Positions 37,087 to 62,188 of a stretch of DNA of 64,000 nucleotides are shown piece after piece. The notes beneath the pieces are model-generated. The model saw only the letters and a list, made by a program, of their open reading frames with translations, made no database searches and was not told the DNA's origin. Position numbers and translations under genes: made by a program. The stretch comes from Candidatus Binatia bacterium (GTDB lineage: Bacteria; Desulfobacterota; Binatia; UBA12015): positions 62,001 through 126,000 of the forward strand of contig JAQWJE010000057.1 in assembly GCA_029248525.1 (NCBI GenBank), written 5' to 3'. How positions within the stretch are numbered: position 1 is the stretch's first letter; each line of letters opens with the position of its first letter.

Positions 37087-39018
37087 TTAGCGGCACTTCT
37101 TGGTCGTGCCCTTGATATTGTCGGTGCAATCGCCCGGTGCGAACTCATAGTCGCCACAGGTGCTTTGCATATCGCTGGCCATCTCGCCCAGAGCAATCGT
37201 GCCCCGAAACGGTCCGACCAGATTTCCGCCCAGAGCAGATTTCTTGGCCTTGACGGTGAAGCGGATCTTTCCGGTCTTGGCGCGTTTGTCGATGAATTTC
37301 ACCGTCAGCCTCTCGGGCTTGCCCGACATGCAGGGTCCGCCATCAAAGTCGCCGGTCTTGTTCCGGTAGGTAAACGTGGTGCCTTGTTTGTTGACCGTCC
37401 AACCGTCATTGGGGTGACAGCCGATGCCGGTCGGCCCCGGCGGGATCGGCGTCGTGTCATGGCTCAGGTCGAGGATCCGCGCATGGGCGTTGCCGATGTC
37501 CTGAACAATGATTTGCGCGCCGGTGGCGATCGGGTCCAGGCTGATTGAGTTGCCGCCTCCGGGGAATACCAGATCGCCCGTGAAGGTCAGGCTCTGGTCC
37601 CCATCCGGGCGGTCGATTCGGCTCAGCGTCAGGCGCGCGTTGGTGGCAATGCCGGATCCAGTGCAAGGGTCGCTTTGACAACCGCAGCCGCTGCATTCAC
37701 CGGGGCAGGCGGCATCGCTGGTGCCATCGCAGACCTCGCCTGTCTCGACCACATTGTTGCCACAGACGGGCGCCGGACACGTACAATCGACCTGGCAGAG
37801 GCCCGAGCAGCTATCGGCGTCCGTGCCATCGCAGTCTTCGCCCCATTCGCGGATATTGTTGCCGCAGACCGTGTCGGTGTCGGCGAATTCCGTGGCGGTA
37901 ATCTGGTACTCGCCTGAACCCGAGGTGCGCCGGACCAGAATATGCCAATCGTCGGCCGCGGTATTATCGAAAATGCAGGTGCCGTGCGGGCCGCTCCCGT
38001 CGCGCGCGCAATCGTTGATGCTCGTCGTGGCGGCCGCCCCTTGGCGGACATAGAGGTCGGCGTTGAATAGGCCGTCATCAGCACTGTTGAGCGAGATGCG
38101 CAATTGATCGGCGGGGATGGTCGTGGTCAGGACATGGTTGGCCACGGTGTTGCCGCCGCCGAGCTGCCCCTCGAATCCGGTCACGGCGACCTCATTGTCG
38201 CCCACCACAGGCAGCGCACTGCAGTTGCTTATGGGGTCGGCCCCCAGATGTTGCCGGATGAACGTGCGGTAGTTGTAGACATTGGCGTCATAGCTGGAAT
38301 CCGTAGCAAGGCAGCTGAAGTTGTTGCCGCCCGAGGTAATGCCGACGACGGTCGTGCCGGCACCCAGATCCATGAACAGGGGTCCGCCCGAGTCTCCGTT
38401 GCAGGTATTGGAATCGTCGCCGGGTGCGCCAACCGGATTCTCATACTGCCAGCACACCAGCTGGTTTCGGTTCCGGCCGATATCGGCGCAGTCAATCGTC
38501 TGGACGGTGCCCCAACGTTTGACTCCGTAGTCGTCGCTGTTGCCACCGCTGCGCCCGAAGCCCGCAATCAGCCCGGCGGTCCCGATATGGTTGTTGGGAT
38601 TGATGTCATTGAGAGGAATCGGCTCGATCCCGGTGACCGTCTCCCCGAGCGAGAGCACCGCGACGTCTGCCTTCGGAAACACGTAGGAGGGGTGTGAGTT
38701 GATGCTCGTGACCGAGAAGGTGCCGGCGTGCTGAAAGTACACCTGATATCCAGCTGGATTACTGTTGCCTTCGACGCAATGGGCTGCGGTCAGAAAGGTG
38801 TTGCAGCCGATCAGCGTGCCGCTGCACCAGCTCGACGCCGTATCGGCATCGCCTCCGACCAGAAGAGCTCCGGTTGCCGGAAAGTCGCTGGTATTGAGGC
38901 CGTTGACGATGCGCGCCTGGATGGGCTCGGCCGCGGCTGAGAGGGCTCCCATGCCGAGCCAGCCGATGGCCAGCAGGAGTAGGTTGCGCCATCGGGTCGT
39001 TGTCTTTCGGATTTGCAA
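37087..39018 (-). CDS. Secreted trypsin-like serine protease with DUF4215-type repeats
   Basis: No ATG lies near the signal peptide. I place the start at TTG 39018, eleven bases after GGAGG; GTG 39030 is the alternative. 643 aa: signal peptide, S1 domain with His in LTAAHC, Asp in KADVAVLSL and Ser in GDSGGP, then a beta sandwich (TGFEGQLGGGN), two Cys-rich CGNN...GE.CDG repeats like DUF4215, and a C-terminal beta domain. It probably acts outside the cell. It follows the STN-like gene by about 106 bases. Confidence 0.88.
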   Translation of the reverse strand: MQIRKTTTRWRNLLLLAIGWLGMGALSAAAEPIQARIVNGLNTSDFPATGALLVGGDADTASSWCSGTLIGCNTFLTAAHCVEGNSNPAGYQVYFQHAGTFSVTSINSHPSYVFPKADVAVLSLGETVTGIEPIPLNDINPNNHIGTAGLIAGFGRSGGNSDDYGVKRWGTVQTIDCADIGRNRNQLVCWQYENPVGAPGDDSNTCNGDSGGPLFMDLGAGTTVVGITSGGNNFSCLATDSSYDANVYNYRTFIRQHLGADPISNCSALPVVGDNEVAVTGFEGQLGGGNTVANHVLTTTIPADQLRISLNSADDGLFNADLYVRQGAAATTSINDCARDGSGPHGTCIFDNTAADDWHILVRRTSGSGEYQITATEFADTDTVCGNNIREWGEDCDGTDADSCSGLCQVDCTCPAPVCGNNVVETGEVCDGTSDAACPGECSGCGCQSDPCTGSGIATNARLTLSRIDRPDGDQSLTFTGDLVFPGGGNSISLDPIATGAQIIVQDIGNAHARILDLSHDTTPIPPGPTGIGCHPNDGWTVNKQGTTFTYRNKTGDFDGGPCMSGKPERLTVKFIDKRAKTGKIRFTVKAKKSALGGNLVGPFRGTIALGEMASDMQSTCGDYEFAPGDCTDNIKGTTKKCR

Positions 39019-39124
39019 AAAAGAGGTCACCTCCCGAGGATCTAATGGGAAACTTCTTTTGGCAACTCTTTTTTTGACCCGACAAGAGTCGCTGAGGGTG
39101 GAAAACAGCTTCGACGCTGTGGCC

Positions 39125-39841
39125 CTACTCTTCGTTGGCGCGAAATTCGGCCTGCAAAGCCTGACGAATCTCATCTGCATCCGCCGGATCGAGGCTGTCG
39201 AGCAAGGTGTCGAATTCCTCATCGGGGTCAGCGAAGTCCTGTGGATTGGCAAGTTCCCCGGGATCTCCCGTCAGAGTTTCCGTCGGGGAACTTGCACCTC
39301 TCGCGGCTGGTGCGTCGCGGGTCTCTCGAGATGCGGGCTTCGCATCAGGCCCCGCCAGAGGGGATGCTCCCCGACCGCGGGTAGCTCCCGGTCGAGTCTC
39401 GGATGCCGGGCGCATCAGGATGATTTTGGCAATTTTCCCCTGCGCTTCGGGATTCTCGCTACCGGCGTATACGATCAGGTGATTCTGCTTGGCCAGCAGC
39501 GATTGCAGAGCCTCCGGGAGAGGCTGGTTTTCGACTGAAAATATCGCGAGGGTTTCGGCGACACCGGTGGCGTCGACCACTTCGAAGTTCGCTTTTGCTG
39601 CGATCGCCTTGAGGATGCGCGCCACGCTGACTTCTTCGGCTTCGATGGTGAATCCATCGGCGGATTCCGTGACCTCCAAAAAACTCTCGGCAGATGCCGG
39701 GGGCGCGGAGAGCAGGGCGAGCAGCAGACCTCCACAGCATGCCAGATGCCGCACGACTGAGGCGATCGGGCCATTGGCCGTTCGCCTGCCGGAGGCGGTT
39801 GGTCGTACCCGAGTCCGGGCATTTGGGGCAGATCTCATCAT
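39125..39841 (-). CDS. Exported protein with STN/secretin-N-like domain
   Basis: Start at ATG 39841 or 39838; the longer frame is a shadow of the FrnE gene. 238 aa. A membrane segment (LACCGGLLLALLSAPPASA) is followed at about 65-125 by SVARILKAIAAKANFEVVD and PLPEALQSLLAKQNHLIVYAG, the beta-alpha-beta pattern of STN domains in secretins and TonB receptors. The C-terminal half is disordered and Pro/Asp/Glu rich. It may be a partner of a secretion system; the adjoining protease would be a natural cargo (inference). Confidence 0.72.
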   Translation of the reverse strand: MMRSAPNARTRVRPTASGRRTANGPIASVVRHLACCGGLLLALLSAPPASAESFLEVTESADGFTIEAEEVSVARILKAIAAKANFEVVDATGVAETLAIFSVENQPLPEALQSLLAKQNHLIVYAGSENPEAQGKIAKIILMRPASETRPGATRGRGASPLAGPDAKPASRETRDAPAARGASSPTETLTGDPGELANPQDFADPDEEFDTLLDSLDPADADEIRQALQAEFRANEE

Positions 39842-42797: not shown

Positions 42798-45182
42798 CTA
42801 TTCCAGGTTGATCTGGCAGGACCCGCTAACGATTGCACCGCTGCGATCTGAAACATCGGACTCGCAGCGGAAAAGATCGCTCGCGGGACGGACTCCGTTG
42901 CAGTCAAAACGGATCCTCGCCAGAGCGCCGCTGGCGATGCCTTCGGTGTCGACCAACCCGATTGCGACATGATTGCCACGGTGCGCAAAGGCGCTGATCT
43001 CCGGAATTGGTTCGCTGAGGATCTCCACCCGCGACGGAGCACTACTTGTCTCCAGCGACTCGGGCAGGCTCACATTCTCGGGATAGTATAGTCGCAGGAT
43101 CATCGCGGCCGGATCAGGTGCATCGATAGCGATTCCGACCTCCAGGCTCCCGGTGCAGTTGCCGGGTGTTGGAGCCACCGATGTCGGCGTGGGTTCTGGC
43201 GTAGGGACCAGCGTGGGCTCCGGCGTAGGCTCCGGCGTCGGTTCGGGGGTCGGTGTTGTGGGGCCTTCCGGCTGGTAGTCGATGGTTTCGAATCCCTGGC
43301 TTGATTGGGACCACTCGATTACAACGCTTTCCCCGTCGCGAGGAAAGTCGGGCAGTGCGTAGGTTCCGCGAGCCCCACGATAGAAGGGAACGCCGAGCCC
43401 GGAAACCAGAAACTCCCTTGTGGCAAAAACTTCGCCGTCGTCGCGCATCTCCAACGTATGGGCACCCGCTGTGAGAAGCCCGAAGTTCCATTGCAGGGCG
43501 TAGGCATTATTTTCATCACCACAGATCGACAAAGTATCGCGACGGGACGTTCCATAGGCTACCGGAATCGGCTCCCCCTGATCGAAGGTTGCGGTGATTT
43601 CGCCAGCATCGCATCGCCATCCGGAGACCAGCGATATGCCGCTCATGGTGCTGTTCGGAGCTGGAATCTCCAAGCTTCCCGGAGTACTTTGCGCAGGTTG
43701 CGCCAGATTTTCGAGGGGGCTCTCCGAAGCTCCGGGGTTTGCTTCGGTTTGGAGGATGCCAAACGATTGTGAGGCCGTCTGCCATCCGATACGAACGCCG
43801 CGGTCGACTGCGGGGTCAGGGAAATTTGTGAGGGTGAACTCGAGTTCGCCGGAAGTTTGTTCGTTGGAAAGGAACCTCTGCCCAAGCCTTCGGGTCTCAA
43901 AGGTGGACGAGGCGAATACGACACCGTCGTCGTACAGGCGCAGTGTATGTTGCCCATCGGCAAGGTTGCCGTAATTCCAGAGCATGACAAACGCGTTGTT
44001 CTGGTCTCCGCAGACTGTCTCGGTATCCCCGCGGGTTGTCCCGTAGGCGACTTCGAGAGGGTCGCCATCATCGAATGTCGCGGTTAACTTTCCCGCTGAG
44101 CATTTCCATCCCGAAACAATTCCGATGCCGCTCTGGATGCTGCCGGGCGACGGAATTTCCAGTGCCGAAGACGTGTTGCTGATCGCTGCGCGTCGCCCCG
44201 AAATTGCAGGCGCGAGATCGCAGTTTCCGGCTGGGCAGGGTACGTCGCCCCCCAGCGCACGATCGACGCAAAGCCAGACATCATCCGGATCGACATCCTG
44301 ATCATCGTCCATATCGCCGCATTGTTTGGCTTGGCACGGATGAGGGCCACAGGCCCCCGCGGTATCGATCCCCTTCGCAACCCGCTGCAAGGCGAGGAGG
44401 TCCTGCGCCAGCAGAGCACCATCAAAGACCGCATCGCAGCACCGACCGCAGGTGTCGCGAGAATGGATGGCCACGACGGTATCGATATCGGCTCCAGCTT
44501 TTCCCTGGCCGACGATCGGGAACTGGTTGCCCTCGTCATTGATCGAGTTTCCGGCGTCGACGATACGGATATAGCGGGCCTCCTGCAGCCCGATCGAGGC
44601 AAGGTCGAAACCATCGCCGCCAGCTTCCGGGCTTCTGGGGTCGATACCGTTGTCGGGATGGGAAAGTCCGGGGTTCAGCCCTGCGAGCCCGCGAATTCCC
44701 TCCGAGTTAAAGACCGGCGTCGCTTCGAGGTCGTTTGATGTGGCGAGGCTCCCGTCGGCATAGGTCACGGGAAAACGGTAGAAGTTGAGGCCGTCTTCGC
44801 TGGCCTCGATGTAGGCGGCCTCGCGGAATACGGCGGTAGGTGAATTGCGGAAGGCATTCTCGAAAACGCGGAAGTCATCGCCGGGAAGATCGATGATGGC
44901 GTTGTCGAGGAATCCCAGAGTCAGAGAACCTCCGGTGCCAAGCGAGAGGACGTCCAGAGATTGTGCAAACTCGCTCCCGCCTCGCGGCAGCCCAAGCACC
45001 ACGTCCGGAAGCCGCAAGCCATTCTTGATCCACCCGCCATCATTGCCCTGCTCAAATTGGGTCAGCTCATCGGCGCAGGGGTCGGCACTCGCTATCCCTG
45101 CCCCGATGAATGTCAGCACCAATGCAGCCGTGGCGACGAAGGCTCGTCGACGAAGGCTCGGGCTTGCCGCCATCGAGAACAT
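42798..45182 (-). CDS. Large secreted multidomain protein of the B12-riboswitch operon
   Basis: Start at ATG 45182, overlapping the TGA of the lipoprotein gene (TGATG). 794 aa: signal peptide 1-33; N-terminal domain about 50-245 (DVVLGLPRGG, FRVFENAFRN, SEDGLNFYRF); Cys-rich, dockerin-like stretch 245-325 (DMDDDQDVDPDDV); two 130-residue repeats at about 350-477 and 513-636 (SGIGIVSGWKC and SGISLVSGWRC, each with CGDxNNA); a PTPEP linker 645-673; a final beta domain like cohesin. Nothing catalytic seen. Second gene behind the cobalamin riboswitch, so probably corrinoid-related at the cell surface (inference). Confidence 0.85.
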   Translation of the reverse strand: MFSMAASPSLRRRAFVATAALVLTFIGAGIASADPCADELTQFEQGNDGGWIKNGLRLPDVVLGLPRGGSEFAQSLDVLSLGTGGSLTLGFLDNAIIDLPGDDFRVFENAFRNSPTAVFREAAYIEASEDGLNFYRFPVTYADGSLATSNDLEATPVFNSEGIRGLAGLNPGLSHPDNGIDPRSPEAGGDGFDLASIGLQEARYIRIVDAGNSINDEGNQFPIVGQGKAGADIDTVVAIHSRDTCGRCCDAVFDGALLAQDLLALQRVAKGIDTAGACGPHPCQAKQCGDMDDDQDVDPDDVWLCVDRALGGDVPCPAGNCDLAPAISGRRAAISNTSSALEIPSPGSIQSGIGIVSGWKCSAGKLTATFDDGDPLEVAYGTTRGDTETVCGDQNNAFVMLWNYGNLADGQHTLRLYDDGVVFASSTFETRRLGQRFLSNEQTSGELEFTLTNFPDPAVDRGVRIGWQTASQSFGILQTEANPGASESPLENLAQPAQSTPGSLEIPAPNSTMSGISLVSGWRCDAGEITATFDQGEPIPVAYGTSRRDTLSICGDENNAYALQWNFGLLTAGAHTLEMRDDGEVFATREFLVSGLGVPFYRGARGTYALPDFPRDGESVVIEWSQSSQGFETIDYQPEGPTTPTPEPTPEPTPEPTLVPTPEPTPTSVAPTPGNCTGSLEVGIAIDAPDPAAMILRLYYPENVSLPESLETSSAPSRVEILSEPIPEISAFAHRGNHVAIGLVDTEGIASGALARIRFDCNGVRPASDLFRCESDVSDRSGAIVSGSCQINLE

Positions 45183-46579
45183 CAGCGACAACGTAGCGTG
45201 AGGCTGTCTGTATCGGTCGTTCCATCCACGGTCAGAACTTCCATGCTGATTTCCACCTTCTTGCCCTTGTCCACCTCGACAATGGTGCTGCCCGAGCAGG
45301 CGGCTTCGTTACCGGGGATGATTGCGTCGACGCGCAATTGCATGGCGAGGAAGAGACCATCGGGGTCGACACGCGGAGAACGTCTCACGGCGACCGAACT
45401 CGTATTCTCCGGTGTGCAGGTCGAATCGTTGGGATCGGCGAGTCGCAAGCAGGCACCAACTTCGAAGGTGCAGGAACCGTTTTCTTCGCGGTCGCGGTCA
45501 CAATCAATCTCACCGTCGCGGCATCGCCATACGTTGCCCTGAGGGCTATGCGGCGTGCCCCCCCAGAACGCGGCCTGGCAGTCTTCAGCATCCATCCCGA
45601 GGCCGGTCATGCGGTTGGTGGGGGTGAGGAGTGTGATTTCCGGACAACCTTCCGGGAAGCAGGAGTCGACGATACCGATCTGTCCCGATGGCGTATCGAT
45701 ATCGATACCGAGCGAGAACTGGAACCCTTCGGCAATGGTGGAGGGCATGCCGTCCTGGTCGAGAGAGACGACGATCGAGCTCGAGAAGTCCGGTGCACTT
45801 CCTCCGGTGACGAGCAGGCTGCCGCGCTGATTCAGAACCTGATCGGCTGCGCCGCTGAGTTCGATTCCACCAATGGCCGAACCGCCGGCGTCAACCGGGG
45901 TACCTTCAGCTGTGTACTCGAGGATGAAGCCAACAAAATTTCCGTCGACATTGCCGACCAGCAGGTTTCCCTCGGGCAAAACCGAGATTCCGGCCGCGTA
46001 TTCGAGGCCTTCGATCAAATACGCAAAGGTGCCCGTAGCGAGATCAACCGAGATCACGCCACCGAGGCCCGGGGGACCGCCTGCGTCCGAGACCAGAAGC
46101 GTCTCCGCATCCATGACGATCACTTGAGCAGCAAAGGGAATTGATCCGCTGGGTAGGATTTCGAGATCCGCTGCGTTCACGTTGTTCGCACTGAGCGCGT
46201 CGGGGAGCGCGTAGACGGTATCGCCGGTGATGGCGCCCGGAAAATCGCCCGCATTATCCGTGAAGTACAAGGTGCCACTTTCGCTGTCGTAGGCCATGCC
46301 ACCGATCGAGTTCAATCCGCTCACGGCAGTCTCGAGAAGGCCGCCATGCCCGCGGCGCTGGATGGATTCGGTCCCCGCGCCGTAGCTTCCCTGGCCGACG
46401 AAGATATGGGTGCCGGCGAACGCGAGATCGCTCTGGAGTGGAGTTCCCAGCCTGTGTTCTCCCCGCACGTAAGCCGTCGTATCGTCTTCGGGCATCGGTG
46501 CAGGTGCGTTGCTGGAGCCGCAGCCAACGAGAATCGTGGACAGCAGGCCGAGTGCCAGGGCGATTGTTTGGGTTTGCAT
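45182..46579 (-). CDS. Propeller-like lipoprotein under cobalamin riboswitch control
   Basis: 465 aa, ATG behind GAAGGAAAG. Lipobox STILVGC with Cys20. Residues 60-330 show spaced repeats (IGGMAYDSESGTLYFTDN, AAGISVLPEGNLLVGNVDG, LGIDIDTPSGQIGIVDS) typical of NHL/SMP-30-like propellers. The C-terminal 130 residues are Cys-rich (DCQAAFWGG, WRCRDGEIDCDRDRE). It is the first gene downstream of the riboswitch at 46699-46846. BtuG of Bacteroides, also a propeller lipoprotein, binds cobalamin with extreme affinity. I infer a similar role, without sequence homology evidence. Confidence 0.82.
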   Translation of the reverse strand: MQTQTIALALGLLSTILVGCGSSNAPAPMPEDDTTAYVRGEHRLGTPLQSDLAFAGTHIFVGQGSYGAGTESIQRRGHGGLLETAVSGLNSIGGMAYDSESGTLYFTDNAGDFPGAITGDTVYALPDALSANNVNAADLEILPSGSIPFAAQVIVMDAETLLVSDAGGPPGLGGVISVDLATGTFAYLIEGLEYAAGISVLPEGNLLVGNVDGNFVGFILEYTAEGTPVDAGGSAIGGIELSGAADQVLNQRGSLLVTGGSAPDFSSSIVVSLDQDGMPSTIAEGFQFSLGIDIDTPSGQIGIVDSCFPEGCPEITLLTPTNRMTGLGMDAEDCQAAFWGGTPHSPQGNVWRCRDGEIDCDRDREENGSCTFEVGACLRLADPNDSTCTPENTSSVAVRRSPRVDPDGLFLAMQLRVDAIIPGNEAACSGSTIVEVDKGKKVEISMEVLTVDGTTDTDSLTLRCR

Positions 46580-46698
46580 GGGGCTTTCCTTCTGGCTGCT
46601 GCCCGCAGCGCTCAGGGGATACCCGCAGGGCCGAATCCAGAGAATCAGGAAAACTCTCTGCCAGAACCCGGACTCCCGTGGGATCTATTTCAATCATT

Positions 46699-46846
46699 CC
46701 CGGTGGCCAGGTTTCCTGACTTGTCGTCTTCCTACTGACGTCGCCTTCCCATCATCAAGGACAGTGGCATTCCGACGCTTTCGTTCGACTTACAGTGGCG
46801 GGAGCCGTGCTGGATTTTCACCAGCTTCCCTTAAAAACCACCAGGT
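46699..46846 (-). promoter_or_regulatory. Cobalamin (B12) riboswitch
   Basis: On the minus strand all main conserved blocks occur in order: GGTGAAAATCC, CCCGCCACTGTAAG, GCCACTG, GGGAAGGCG and the B12 box GTCAGGAAACCTGGCC (46704-46720). P1 closes by CCTGGTGG pairing CCACCGGG. The gap to the ATG at 46579 contains a GCTGC/GCAGC hairpin beside the ribosome site and no terminator, so ligand binding probably blocks translation. Confidence 0.97.
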
Positions 46847-46886
46847 CTAAAGCGGAGATAGCACAGGTCCGGAGGGTCGCAAAGCG

Positions 46887-48818
46887 CTAAAGAACGGGGT
46901 CGGAGAGAAACCAGATGGCTGAAGTGACCGCACGCTCCTGAAGCGTTCGGGGAAAGGAGGTGTCGCAACAGGGGGCCATTCCCTCGCCGATCGTCCCGGG
47001 ATCGTTGCAGTCCACACCGGCGGCATTGCAGATATAGCTTTGCCAACGACAGGTCGGATTCTCCAGAACGCGGGCGTACCAGAAAGCGGATTGCCCGGGG
47101 CGAAAGTCGGGATCGGTCCAAACCTGACAGAGTTCGTCGGCACCGGGACCTGCGGTGGTGCAGGTTTGCGAGTCCACCGTGGCCTCGCCGGCGGCGCGTC
47201 CGACGACGTCGTAGACTTTTTCATGAACATTCCCGGCGTCGTCCAACCATCCCTTGATGATCTGGACTCGTTGCAGCGGCGTTTCCAATCCTCCGCTGTC
47301 CCGCAAGGCCTGGATGGCAAAGCGCGGCGCCGAGCTTGCCATGGGCGGTAATATCCCGCCCATGGGTACGCCTCCGGCGTAGCCCTTCTCGACAAAATCG
47401 TTTCGCGCACAGAGATCATCGGCGTAGTTCCAGCCGGCAAAAAATCGGACCTTCATCCGGGGGCCGGTCGTTGAGTATGTTTCCCGGCGCTGGAGCGCAT
47501 CAAAAATAGAATCGCGCGAATTTTCCTCGGCCCATACGACGGCAAGTCCACCCGGATTGAAATCGATATCGTCGGGCAGACCGCGCGGCATCGTTACAGA
47601 AGAAGGGGCACCGGCCCCCCCATGTCCAGGGTGCTGATCTTCCCGCACCGCACCCGGCGTACCCAGGTGGGTGTCGGTGCTGCTGATCACGCCCATTTGG
47701 AAAGGGTTTGTTCCGAGGGATTTCTCCAGCGCGAGTCCTTTCTTCAGAGCATTGCGCACAAAGCTCCCCTCGCTCGGAGCAACGTTTTGGAAGTCGGCAA
47801 ACTTGCCGCCAAAATTGCCGTAGGGCAGGAGTTCGAAGTCGCAAAATTCGTCGCGCGTTCCCACGCCGATGCGGCACTCGGAATCGCCCTTATGCTGGCT
47901 CAGTTCGACCAGCGGTTCCATTTCGGCGCGACGTTTGACGTAATCTCTCGAAAACGGAGTTCCATCCTCCTCGGTTTCCGCAAACATGACGCCGCCGCTC
48001 AGGTTTGAGTTGTGGGGAATGATCAGTGCTTCGCAGCCGTTCTCCTCGATATTGCATTGCTCATCGAGGGCCGCCCAGAGGTCGCATACTTTCCGCGCGT
48101 CACGAGAGCTGATCGGTAGTTCGGGAACCTTTCCATTCCGAAAGATAATATTGCGATGCAGGTTGTTGGTTTCGGGGGCAGCGGTCCACTCGTAGGCAAC
48201 CAGACTGGTGAAATTGCACGCGGAGCTGCGATCGTAGGCCTCCTCGGCTGCCGTGATGGTCTCTTCCCAAGGGCCCTTCGCCGCTTTCAGGCAGATCGCA
48301 GCATTCTCGCCGCAAAAAGCGAAGCTGCTCCCGTCGGTCATGGATCCGTTGATCAGGAAGAAAGCGAGTCGTGGCCAGCGCCTGTAAATCTTGCAGGCGG
48401 TTGCATCATAGCCCTCGGCTTCGGGCGTGCGGCATATATGCAACTCGCCGAAGAGTTCCGCGTGGTCGGTGACTGCTGCAAAATCAAGCGGTCTTTCCAG
48501 TTGGACCTCGCGCATCGCCACGTCTCCATCATAAGGCTGGATACCGAGCCTCTCGCCGCGCGCGAAGCGATAGGCGTCGCGCGGCCGATTACGCGTGCCC
48601 TGAGTCGCTGCATCCAGCGAGAGCGTGGAGTGCACATGGAGATCTCCAAAAAGCGCCTTGCGAAGAGGGGTGCGATCCGCGCAGGCCACTCGGCCCTCGG
48701 GATTGAGCCCGGCCGGGAGGGCCAAGGGCGGGGCGAGGACCGCAACGGTCTCCGCTCGGGCAGGAGGGGCGCTCAGCAAGAGAGCGATCAGGACCCAGAT
48801 CGATCGGCGATAGATCAT
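46887..48818 (-). CDS. Secreted DUF3604 (PHP-like) protein
   Basis: 643 aa, start ATG overlapping the TGA of the membrane protein gene. Signal peptide 1-22 (LLLSAPPARA). PHP-type metal motifs: FGDLHVHSTLSLDA near residue 57, VTDHAE near 114, HNSNLSGG, and SSTDTHLG, the pattern of amidohydrolase-related metal phosphoesterases. Cys-rich C-terminus (TCRWQSYICNAAGVDCNDP). Substrate not known. The riboswitch starts 41 bases beyond its stop, so the riboswitch controls the genes after it, not this one. Confidence 0.92.
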   Translation of the reverse strand: MIYRRSIWVLIALLLSAPPARAETVAVLAPPLALPAGLNPEGRVACADRTPLRKALFGDLHVHSTLSLDAATQGTRNRPRDAYRFARGERLGIQPYDGDVAMREVQLERPLDFAAVTDHAELFGELHICRTPEAEGYDATACKIYRRWPRLAFFLINGSMTDGSSFAFCGENAAICLKAAKGPWEETITAAEEAYDRSSACNFTSLVAYEWTAAPETNNLHRNIIFRNGKVPELPISSRDARKVCDLWAALDEQCNIEENGCEALIIPHNSNLSGGVMFAETEEDGTPFSRDYVKRRAEMEPLVELSQHKGDSECRIGVGTRDEFCDFELLPYGNFGGKFADFQNVAPSEGSFVRNALKKGLALEKSLGTNPFQMGVISSTDTHLGTPGAVREDQHPGHGGAGAPSSVTMPRGLPDDIDFNPGGLAVVWAEENSRDSIFDALQRRETYSTTGPRMKVRFFAGWNYADDLCARNDFVEKGYAGGVPMGGILPPMASSAPRFAIQALRDSGGLETPLQRVQIIKGWLDDAGNVHEKVYDVVGRAAGEATVDSQTCTTAGPGADELCQVWTDPDFRPGQSAFWYARVLENPTCRWQSYICNAAGVDCNDPGTIGEGMAPCCDTSFPRTLQERAVTSAIWFLSDPVL

Positions 48819-61618: not shown

Positions 61619-62188
61619 TCATTGTTTTCGCTGGCCAAAGAGGCGGTCCAACATAATCGCGGCGGCGGCGCGGACCGACAGATGGTTGTAGTCCGAGGCG
61701 CCGTCGATCGGCGCAAGGCGTCGGGTGCATCGTTCCAGGATTTCCGACGTTAGCCCGTAGCCGGTGCCCAAAAGCAGAAGGAAGGGGGTCTCGCTTTCCG
61801 CGATTTCGCGGGACATCGCAGGGTAGCCAATGGTCCCGATACCGGGCCGTGCGGATGTTGCGATCATGGTGGGTAAAGACCCGGTCTCGTTTTCGACCTG
61901 AGCGAGAATTTGGTCGAGATCGGAGGAGATCCGGACAAATTGCAGGGCGTCCCCGCGCGTCGGATTGTAGGTCGCGCCGTGGCCTTCCATCCAATGCCAG
62001 AGGATACGTTCGGTCAGTTTCCGCATTCCCAGAACAGGATGACCGATAAAAAACCCGTCGACGTCGTAGGTCCGAGCGGATCGAGCGATATCGTGGACGT
62101 CGATATTGGTGATGGAGGTCGTAACGACTTCACCGTCACGATTGACGACCGGGTGATGGAGGAGGGCGATATAGAACCGAGCTGGCAT
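61619..62188 (-). CDS. SPOUT-type RNA methyltransferase
   Basis: 189 aa. Knot-type SPOUT family (COG4752-like, Methyltrn_RNA_4): FYIALLHHPVVNRDGEVVTTSITNIDVHDIARSA is typical of the N-terminus, with LLLGTGYGLT near residue 138 for the SAM loop. The target RNA is uncertain. It follows trmD by 12 bases and may be linked to its function in tRNA modification. Confidence 0.88.
   Translation of the reverse strand: MPARFYIALLHHPVVNRDGEVVTTSITNIDVHDIARSARTYDVDGFFIGHPVLGMRKLTERILWHWMEGHGATYNPTRGDALQFVRISSDLDQILAQVENETGSLPTMIATSARPGIGTIGYPAMSREIAESETPFLLLLGTGYGLTSEILERCTRRLAPIDGASDYNHLSVRAAAAIMLDRLFGQRKQ

Follow-up and report, generated by a model that had tools for sequence, protein, structure and literature searches.

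The locus described here lies in a window of 64,000 nucleotides (positions 62,001 to 126,000 of contig JAQWJE010000057.1, forward strand) from the Candidatus Binatia bacterium assembly GCA_029248525.1, a metagenome-assembled genome (MAG) of 4.27 Mb that is 98.9% complete. A cobalamin riboswitch on the minus strand is followed by the genes of a 465-residue lipoprotein and a 794-residue secreted multidomain protein (Table 1). The gene after the second open reading frame (ORF) is convergent, and the operon therefore consists of two genes. The riboswitch is the only Rfam family matched within the window; its aptamer is complete and scores above the gathering threshold of RF00174 (31.5 bits). The start codon of the lipoprotein ORF (46579) is located 110 nucleotides downstream of the riboswitch, with a Shine-Dalgarno-like AAGGAAAG ahead of it at 46591-46584. 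A search of the leader for an intrinsic terminator found none, and the riboswitch is for this reason presumed to act at the level of translation. The folding energy of the leader is no better than that of shuffled sequences (z -0.66). A preliminary description of this DNA had placed a complete cobalamin riboswitch at 46699-46846, reading toward two ORFs coupled by TGATG, the first for a lipoprotein with propeller-like repeats. These assignments hold: the span lies inside the RF00174 match (46856-46689, minus strand), both ORFs are real, and the lipoprotein has a lipobox (Cys20) and is predicted by AlphaFold to be a β-propeller.

Table 1. Features of the riboswitch operon (positions are those of the window)
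Feature	Position	Strand	Basis
Cobalamin riboswitch aptamer	46689..46856	-	RF00174, 94.5 bits, E 3.1e-22, model 1-189 complete
Leader from aptamer to start codon, presumed expression platform	46580..46688	-	Sequence
465-residue lipoprotein, propeller and Cys-rich C-terminal domain	45182..46579	-	ORF, lipobox LVGC with Cys20, AlphaFold
β-Propeller part, residues 37-340	45560..46471	-	AlphaFold, Foldseek, profile search
Cys-rich C-terminal module, residues 341-465	45185..45559	-	Partial matches elsewhere in the same genome and in relatives
TGATG stop/start overlap of the two genes	45180..45184	-	Sequence
794-residue secreted multidomain protein, BtuH-family domain N-terminal	42798..45182	-	ORF
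BtuH-family domain, residues 30-250	44433..45095	-	Foldseek, profile, hhalign, intermediate sequence
FENAF motif, residues 107-111	44850..44864	-	Glu, Asn and Phe invariant in alignment A8
Repeated immunoglobulin (Ig)-like region, residues 336-653	43224..44177	-	Big_7 subthreshold, E 3.6e-4
C-terminal domain after Pro/Thr-rich linker	42801..43169	-	No family match

Searches of Pfam, NCBIfam and, directly by sequence, the PDB gave no name to either protein. Structure prediction, a check proposed in the preliminary description, was more telling for the N-terminal domain of the 794-residue protein. In Foldseek, the AlphaFold model of this domain (predicted local distance difference test (pLDDT) 81, predicted template modelling score (pTM) 0.85) matches a single PDB chain, 8blw_B, with an E-value under 1e-3 (E 2.7e-5; query TM-score 0.47). 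The chain comes from the Bacteroides protein BtuGH (BtuG1), in which BtuG is fused to the B12-binding BtuH domain (PMC10404256, PMC12751083). In an independent profile search 8blw_B is again the best match, over residues 437-497, which fall within its BtuH part; the E-value (0.064) is weak on its own. In addition, hhalign of the domain against two solved BtuH stretches gives a probability of 95%. A sequence from another locus (L208, 5403-7508) serves as an intermediate; it matches the profile of the domain (A8) at E 1e-16, 8blw_B at 1.2e-17 and BtuH2 (7biz) at 3e-9. Because the intermediate matches both sides, the homology is firm, and the N-terminal domain belongs to the BtuH B12-binding family, whose domain spans some 250-270 residues. 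In alignment A8, which holds 20 relatives, the Glu, Asn and Phe of an FENxF motif are invariant. The motif aligns with GNAF of BtuH2, Asn109 and Phe111 falling on Asn399 and Phe401, where we infer a numbering offset of 100 from the construct limits (103-593) and the 501-residue chain; the other six B12 contacts, among them Gln333, His476, Tyr510, Trp511 and Trp577, cannot be aligned. In BtuH2, Asn399 and Phe401 contact the phosphate and the lower ligand of B12 (PMC8941943).

The likeness extends to the setting. As with BtuH2 and BtuGH of Bacteroides thetaiotaomicron (BT_1956, BT_1490; PDB 7BIZ, 8BLW), the domain belongs to a cobalamin riboswitch locus, is found with BtuB and BtuG-like proteins and would be accessory to transport; the Asn and Phe of the nucleotide-loop site are kept, and Ig-like domains lie within the same chain. 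The order of the parts differs: the BtuH domain is C-terminal in BtuH and follows the Ig-like part, whereas in the 794-residue protein it is N-terminal and precedes it. The protein also comes from a different phylum, its corrinoid binding is predicted, and it has a Sec signal peptide and, as read from the sequence, no lipobox. As it thus lacks the surface-lipoprotein trait, the right statement is that it carries a BtuH-family domain, not that it is BtuH. Copies of the Ig-like block (43224-44177), up to 58% identical, are present in six or more further ORFs of this genome. The BtuH-family domain (44433-45095) matches the Leptospira LIC_13355 lipoprotein family (NF033170) at E 3e-13, below the family cut-off. 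Work on LIC_13355 has dealt with its binding of laminin and plasminogen (PMC11891782). The likeness raises the question of whether the Leptospira lipoprotein binds corrinoids; no link to B12 was found in the literature on LIC_13355. A tblastn search of plasmids with the domain gave no match, and a search of genome contigs with profile A4 returned solely Binatia-type records.

The linkage between riboswitch and lipoprotein was followed through 148 genomes of the class Binatia, with family membership set at E ≤ 1e-15; gene and riboswitch positions were compared, and Rfam was then run on the loci. Nearly all genomes used are MAGs or unnamed assemblies, and gene calls in the relatives come from our own script. 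Cobalamin riboswitches are present in 133 of the 148 genomes and the lipoprotein family in 35. The preliminary description had proposed counting how often homologues follow such a riboswitch. Outside the branch f4, all 30 family genes with readable upstream DNA have one directly upstream; among them are two genes whose sequence is divided between contigs (G323, G484) and two whose riboswitch is truncated where a contig ends (L038, L039). In f4, five genes (two from G092, a single one from each of G445, G447 and G449) belong to riboswitch-headed operons with at least one gene between. Three genes at contig edges (G448, G469 and the second of G481) were left out of the judgement. Among the Binatia genes with readable upstream DNA, there is thus no counter-example. 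The BtuH-family domain is present in all 35 genomes that have the lipoprotein family, encoded by the next gene in nearly all and elsewhere in G473. A BtuB-like receptor is found in 34 of these 35 genomes and in 9 of the remaining 113 (Fisher p 5e-24, with no correction for phylogeny). In 14 genomes the receptor lies within 5 kb of the cassette, sometimes with a BtuG-like propeller, BtuF and BtuC, and some relatives have btuB as the second gene after that of the lipoprotein. The clearest operon (L132) runs from riboswitch to propeller, BtuH-domain protein, TonB receptor, YncE-like propeller, BtuF and BtuC. Other Binatia cobalamin riboswitches precede genes whose translations, judged by eye, look like TonB receptors, TonB and CbiX-like proteins; at L058, L059, L071, L072 and L086 the gene behind the riboswitch appears, on the same kind of reading, to be TonB-like, not a receptor.

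The genome of the window has, at the sensitivity of the search, exactly two cobalamin riboswitches, and each precedes a member of the lipoprotein family. The second, on contig C43 (L003, 10740-10550), is followed by a Sec-secreted paralogue of 464 residues (10435-9041), which is 41% identical to the window lipoprotein; the leaders of the two, beyond the aptamer, are partly conserved. Because the only other cobalamin riboswitch precedes a paralogue and every readable homologue keeps the link, the arrangement of riboswitch and module is not due to chance. Further parts of an uptake system are encoded elsewhere in the genome. Contig C49 (L160, 9748-6519, minus strand) carries a BtuB-like TonB receptor and then a BtuG-like lipoprotein propeller, divergent from uvrA. 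Profile A7, built from the btuB-adjacent propellers including the C49 protein, finds BtuG-type chains as all nine of its best PDB matches, each of them marginal (E 0.057-0.19). BtuG has been reported as exclusive to Bacteroidetes (PMC6143338); the C49 lipoprotein represents a BtuG-like family outside that group. A BtuC, BtuD and BtuF-like transporter is encoded on contig C2. The genome has seven B12-binding domains and no match to CbiC, which suggests that the organism uses corrinoids rather than making them.

A phylum-wide search located the BtuH-family domain in 18 genomes of classes other than Binatia. Leaving out three weak loci, 15 were available as a test that had played no part in building the hypothesis. 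A cobalamin riboswitch is found in 12 of the 15, a TonB receptor matching the profile of the BtuB-like receptor also in 12, and one or the other in all 15. Four of the proteins are fusions of a BtuG-like propeller and a BtuH-like domain, in the Bacteroides order. Five of the 15 loci have, in addition, a gene for a DUF4465 protein (E < 1e-54). This is the family of BtuJ (IPR027828), a secreted B12-binding jelly roll known from riboswitch loci; neither window protein matches DUF4465 (PF14717). At two loci (L197, 7162-7244; L203, 7412-7487) a riboswitch of the c-di-GMP-I class comes directly after the cobalamin riboswitch and before BtuH-like or DUF4465 genes, a tandem that is a possible two-signal leader. 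Dockerin occurs in 5 of 18 relatives' proteins with the domain, and a cohesin is encoded at L200 (3568-4536), which hints at a surface cohesin-dockerin assembly. Such an assembly was also considered for the window protein and rejected, neither domain being detected in the 794-residue protein.

The lipoprotein is less readily placed. Its AlphaFold model (pLDDT 86.6, pTM 0.87) is matched by Foldseek to strictosidine synthase, Drp35 and SMP-30-type lactonases at E about 1e-10, and the family profile matches NHL propellers (PknD, E 2.7e-7). Propellers of the strictosidine synthase, Drp35 and SMP-30 types are six-bladed. BtuG is a seven-bladed propeller (PMC6143338), and it is absent from the profile matches of the family and from the top 50 fold matches of the model. 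Like BtuG (PDB 3DSM, 8OKV), the window protein is a propeller lipoprotein of the surface type whose gene is governed by a cobalamin riboswitch. Unlike BtuG, it has an extra Cys-rich domain, NHL/SMP-30 likeness and, in its own genome, no btuB neighbour, since btuB is on contig C49 with a propeller of its own. An assignment as BtuG was rejected on profile, on fold and on the presence of that separate BtuG-like protein beside btuB. The lipoprotein is an NHL/SMP-30-like propeller of a family distinct from BtuG, tied to the B12 system by context. Most homologues in relatives are secreted and have no lipobox, and the Cys-rich module also occurs in unrelated secreted proteins of this genome and of relatives. 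It is possible, at somewhat short of an even chance, that the lipoprotein is the founding member of a new propeller family that binds corrinoids and has no sequence relation to BtuG, and that with the BtuH-type protein it forms a capture pair, controlled by the riboswitch and distinct from the BtuB-BtuG receptor.

The riboswitch, the operon, its conserved linkage, the BtuH homology and the presence of the other uptake parts were computed directly; on them, the window operon is very probably the surface-capture arm of a corrinoid uptake system. We infer corrinoid binding, surface location, the order of hand-over and the task of the propeller as follows. At low intracellular cobalamin, the riboswitch would permit translation of both proteins from their mRNA. 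The BtuH-family domain would bind corrinoid outside the cell, Asn109 and Phe111 probably contacting the nucleotide loop, and the propeller of the lipoprotein would probably bind, orient or hand on the corrinoid at the outer membrane. From there it would pass to the BtuB-like TonB receptor with its BtuG-like lipoprotein, the lid, both encoded on C49, and in the periplasm to the BtuF/C/D-like importer encoded on C2. The preliminary description had proposed that the pair catches corrinoids in the manner of BtuG and BtuH, outside Bacteroidetes. Operon context, co-occurrence with BtuB and BtuH homology strongly support capture by the pair, for which binding is predicted, and the BtuH counterpart is indeed present, as the N-terminal domain of the 794-residue protein. 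The lipoprotein is not the counterpart of BtuG, which is instead the separate lipoprotein beside btuB on another contig.

Several observations weigh against a capture arm. The propeller is as similar to enzymatic propellers as to ligand-binding ones, and the 794-residue protein differs from known BtuH in having no lipobox. The paralogue on C43 is not accompanied by a BtuH-domain protein; the gene that follows it looks like one for a phosphotransferase. The btuB operon on C49 has no cobalamin riboswitch, and as a consequence solely the capture arm appears to be regulated by riboswitch in this genome. The absence of CbiC is read from a MAG. In the branch f2 the cassette is adjoined by a ZnuA-like metal-binding protein rather than by btuB.

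The similarity of the propeller model to lactonases and strictosidine synthases in Foldseek would fit an enzyme of the SMP-30/strictosidine synthase-like type, which modifies or releases bound or host-complexed corrinoids while the BtuH-domain protein alone binds them. Folds like that of strictosidine synthase are also found in non-enzymes, however, and an enzyme of this kind is not known to be needed for any corrinoid step; we consider this unlikely. The f2 cassettes lead to another proposal, that what the module captures is not corrinoid but a metal, either cobalt or zinc, used in making the cofactor, and that the riboswitch senses B12 as the end product. Cobalt transporters are known targets of B12 riboswitches, and cassettes of f2 (L121, L137, L147 and others) adjoin the ZnuA-like protein near ATP-binding cassette (ABC) transporter genes. 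As a general account this is improbable: with no CbiC in the genome, there is no obvious need of cobalt for corrin synthesis, most of the cassettes accompany BtuB, BtuF and BtuC, and the N-terminal domain of the 794-residue protein is homologous to a B12-binding domain. In the f2 branch itself, a metal-related role (cobalt or zinc) is possibly present; the ZnuA-like gene is at 11361-12353 of L121 and also stands beside the cassette at L131, L137, L141, L146 and L147, with ABC transporter genes near. Least probable of all is that these are generic surface proteins, adhesins or glycan binders, that happen to follow a B12 riboswitch, with B12 as a signal of how dense the community is: modules of both proteins do recur in other secreted proteins of the genome and the N-terminal fold also resembles F5/8 and CBM32 jelly rolls with weak E-values, but the riboswitch linkage is strict in many genera, operons are shared with btuB, btuF and btuC, and the same domain stands in riboswitch or btuB loci of other classes and in BtuG-BtuH fusions.

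Around the operon, the minus-strand gene of a DUF3604 protein ends at 46887, about 30 nucleotides before the riboswitch starts. Elsewhere in the window (37087-39252, minus strand), a secreted protein of 721 residues reads like a trypsin-type serine protease.

With the operon taken as a surface-capture arm, the finding bears on how widely corrinoids are scavenged in this manner. BtuH has been studied in Bacteroidetes only (PMC8941943), and competition in the gut has been offered as an explanation. BtuH-family domains, BtuG-BtuH fusions and DUF4465 proteins in the riboswitch and btuB loci of other lineages suggest that lipoprotein-assisted capture of corrinoids is a general strategy, and BtuH-style scavenging of B12, described so far in gut Bacteroidetes, is probably much wider than thought. 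The new propeller family, with a riboswitch link that so far has no exception, widens the set of B12 riboswitch targets. The Binatia bacterium itself appears to turn on the production of two secreted proteins under vitamin B12 shortage.

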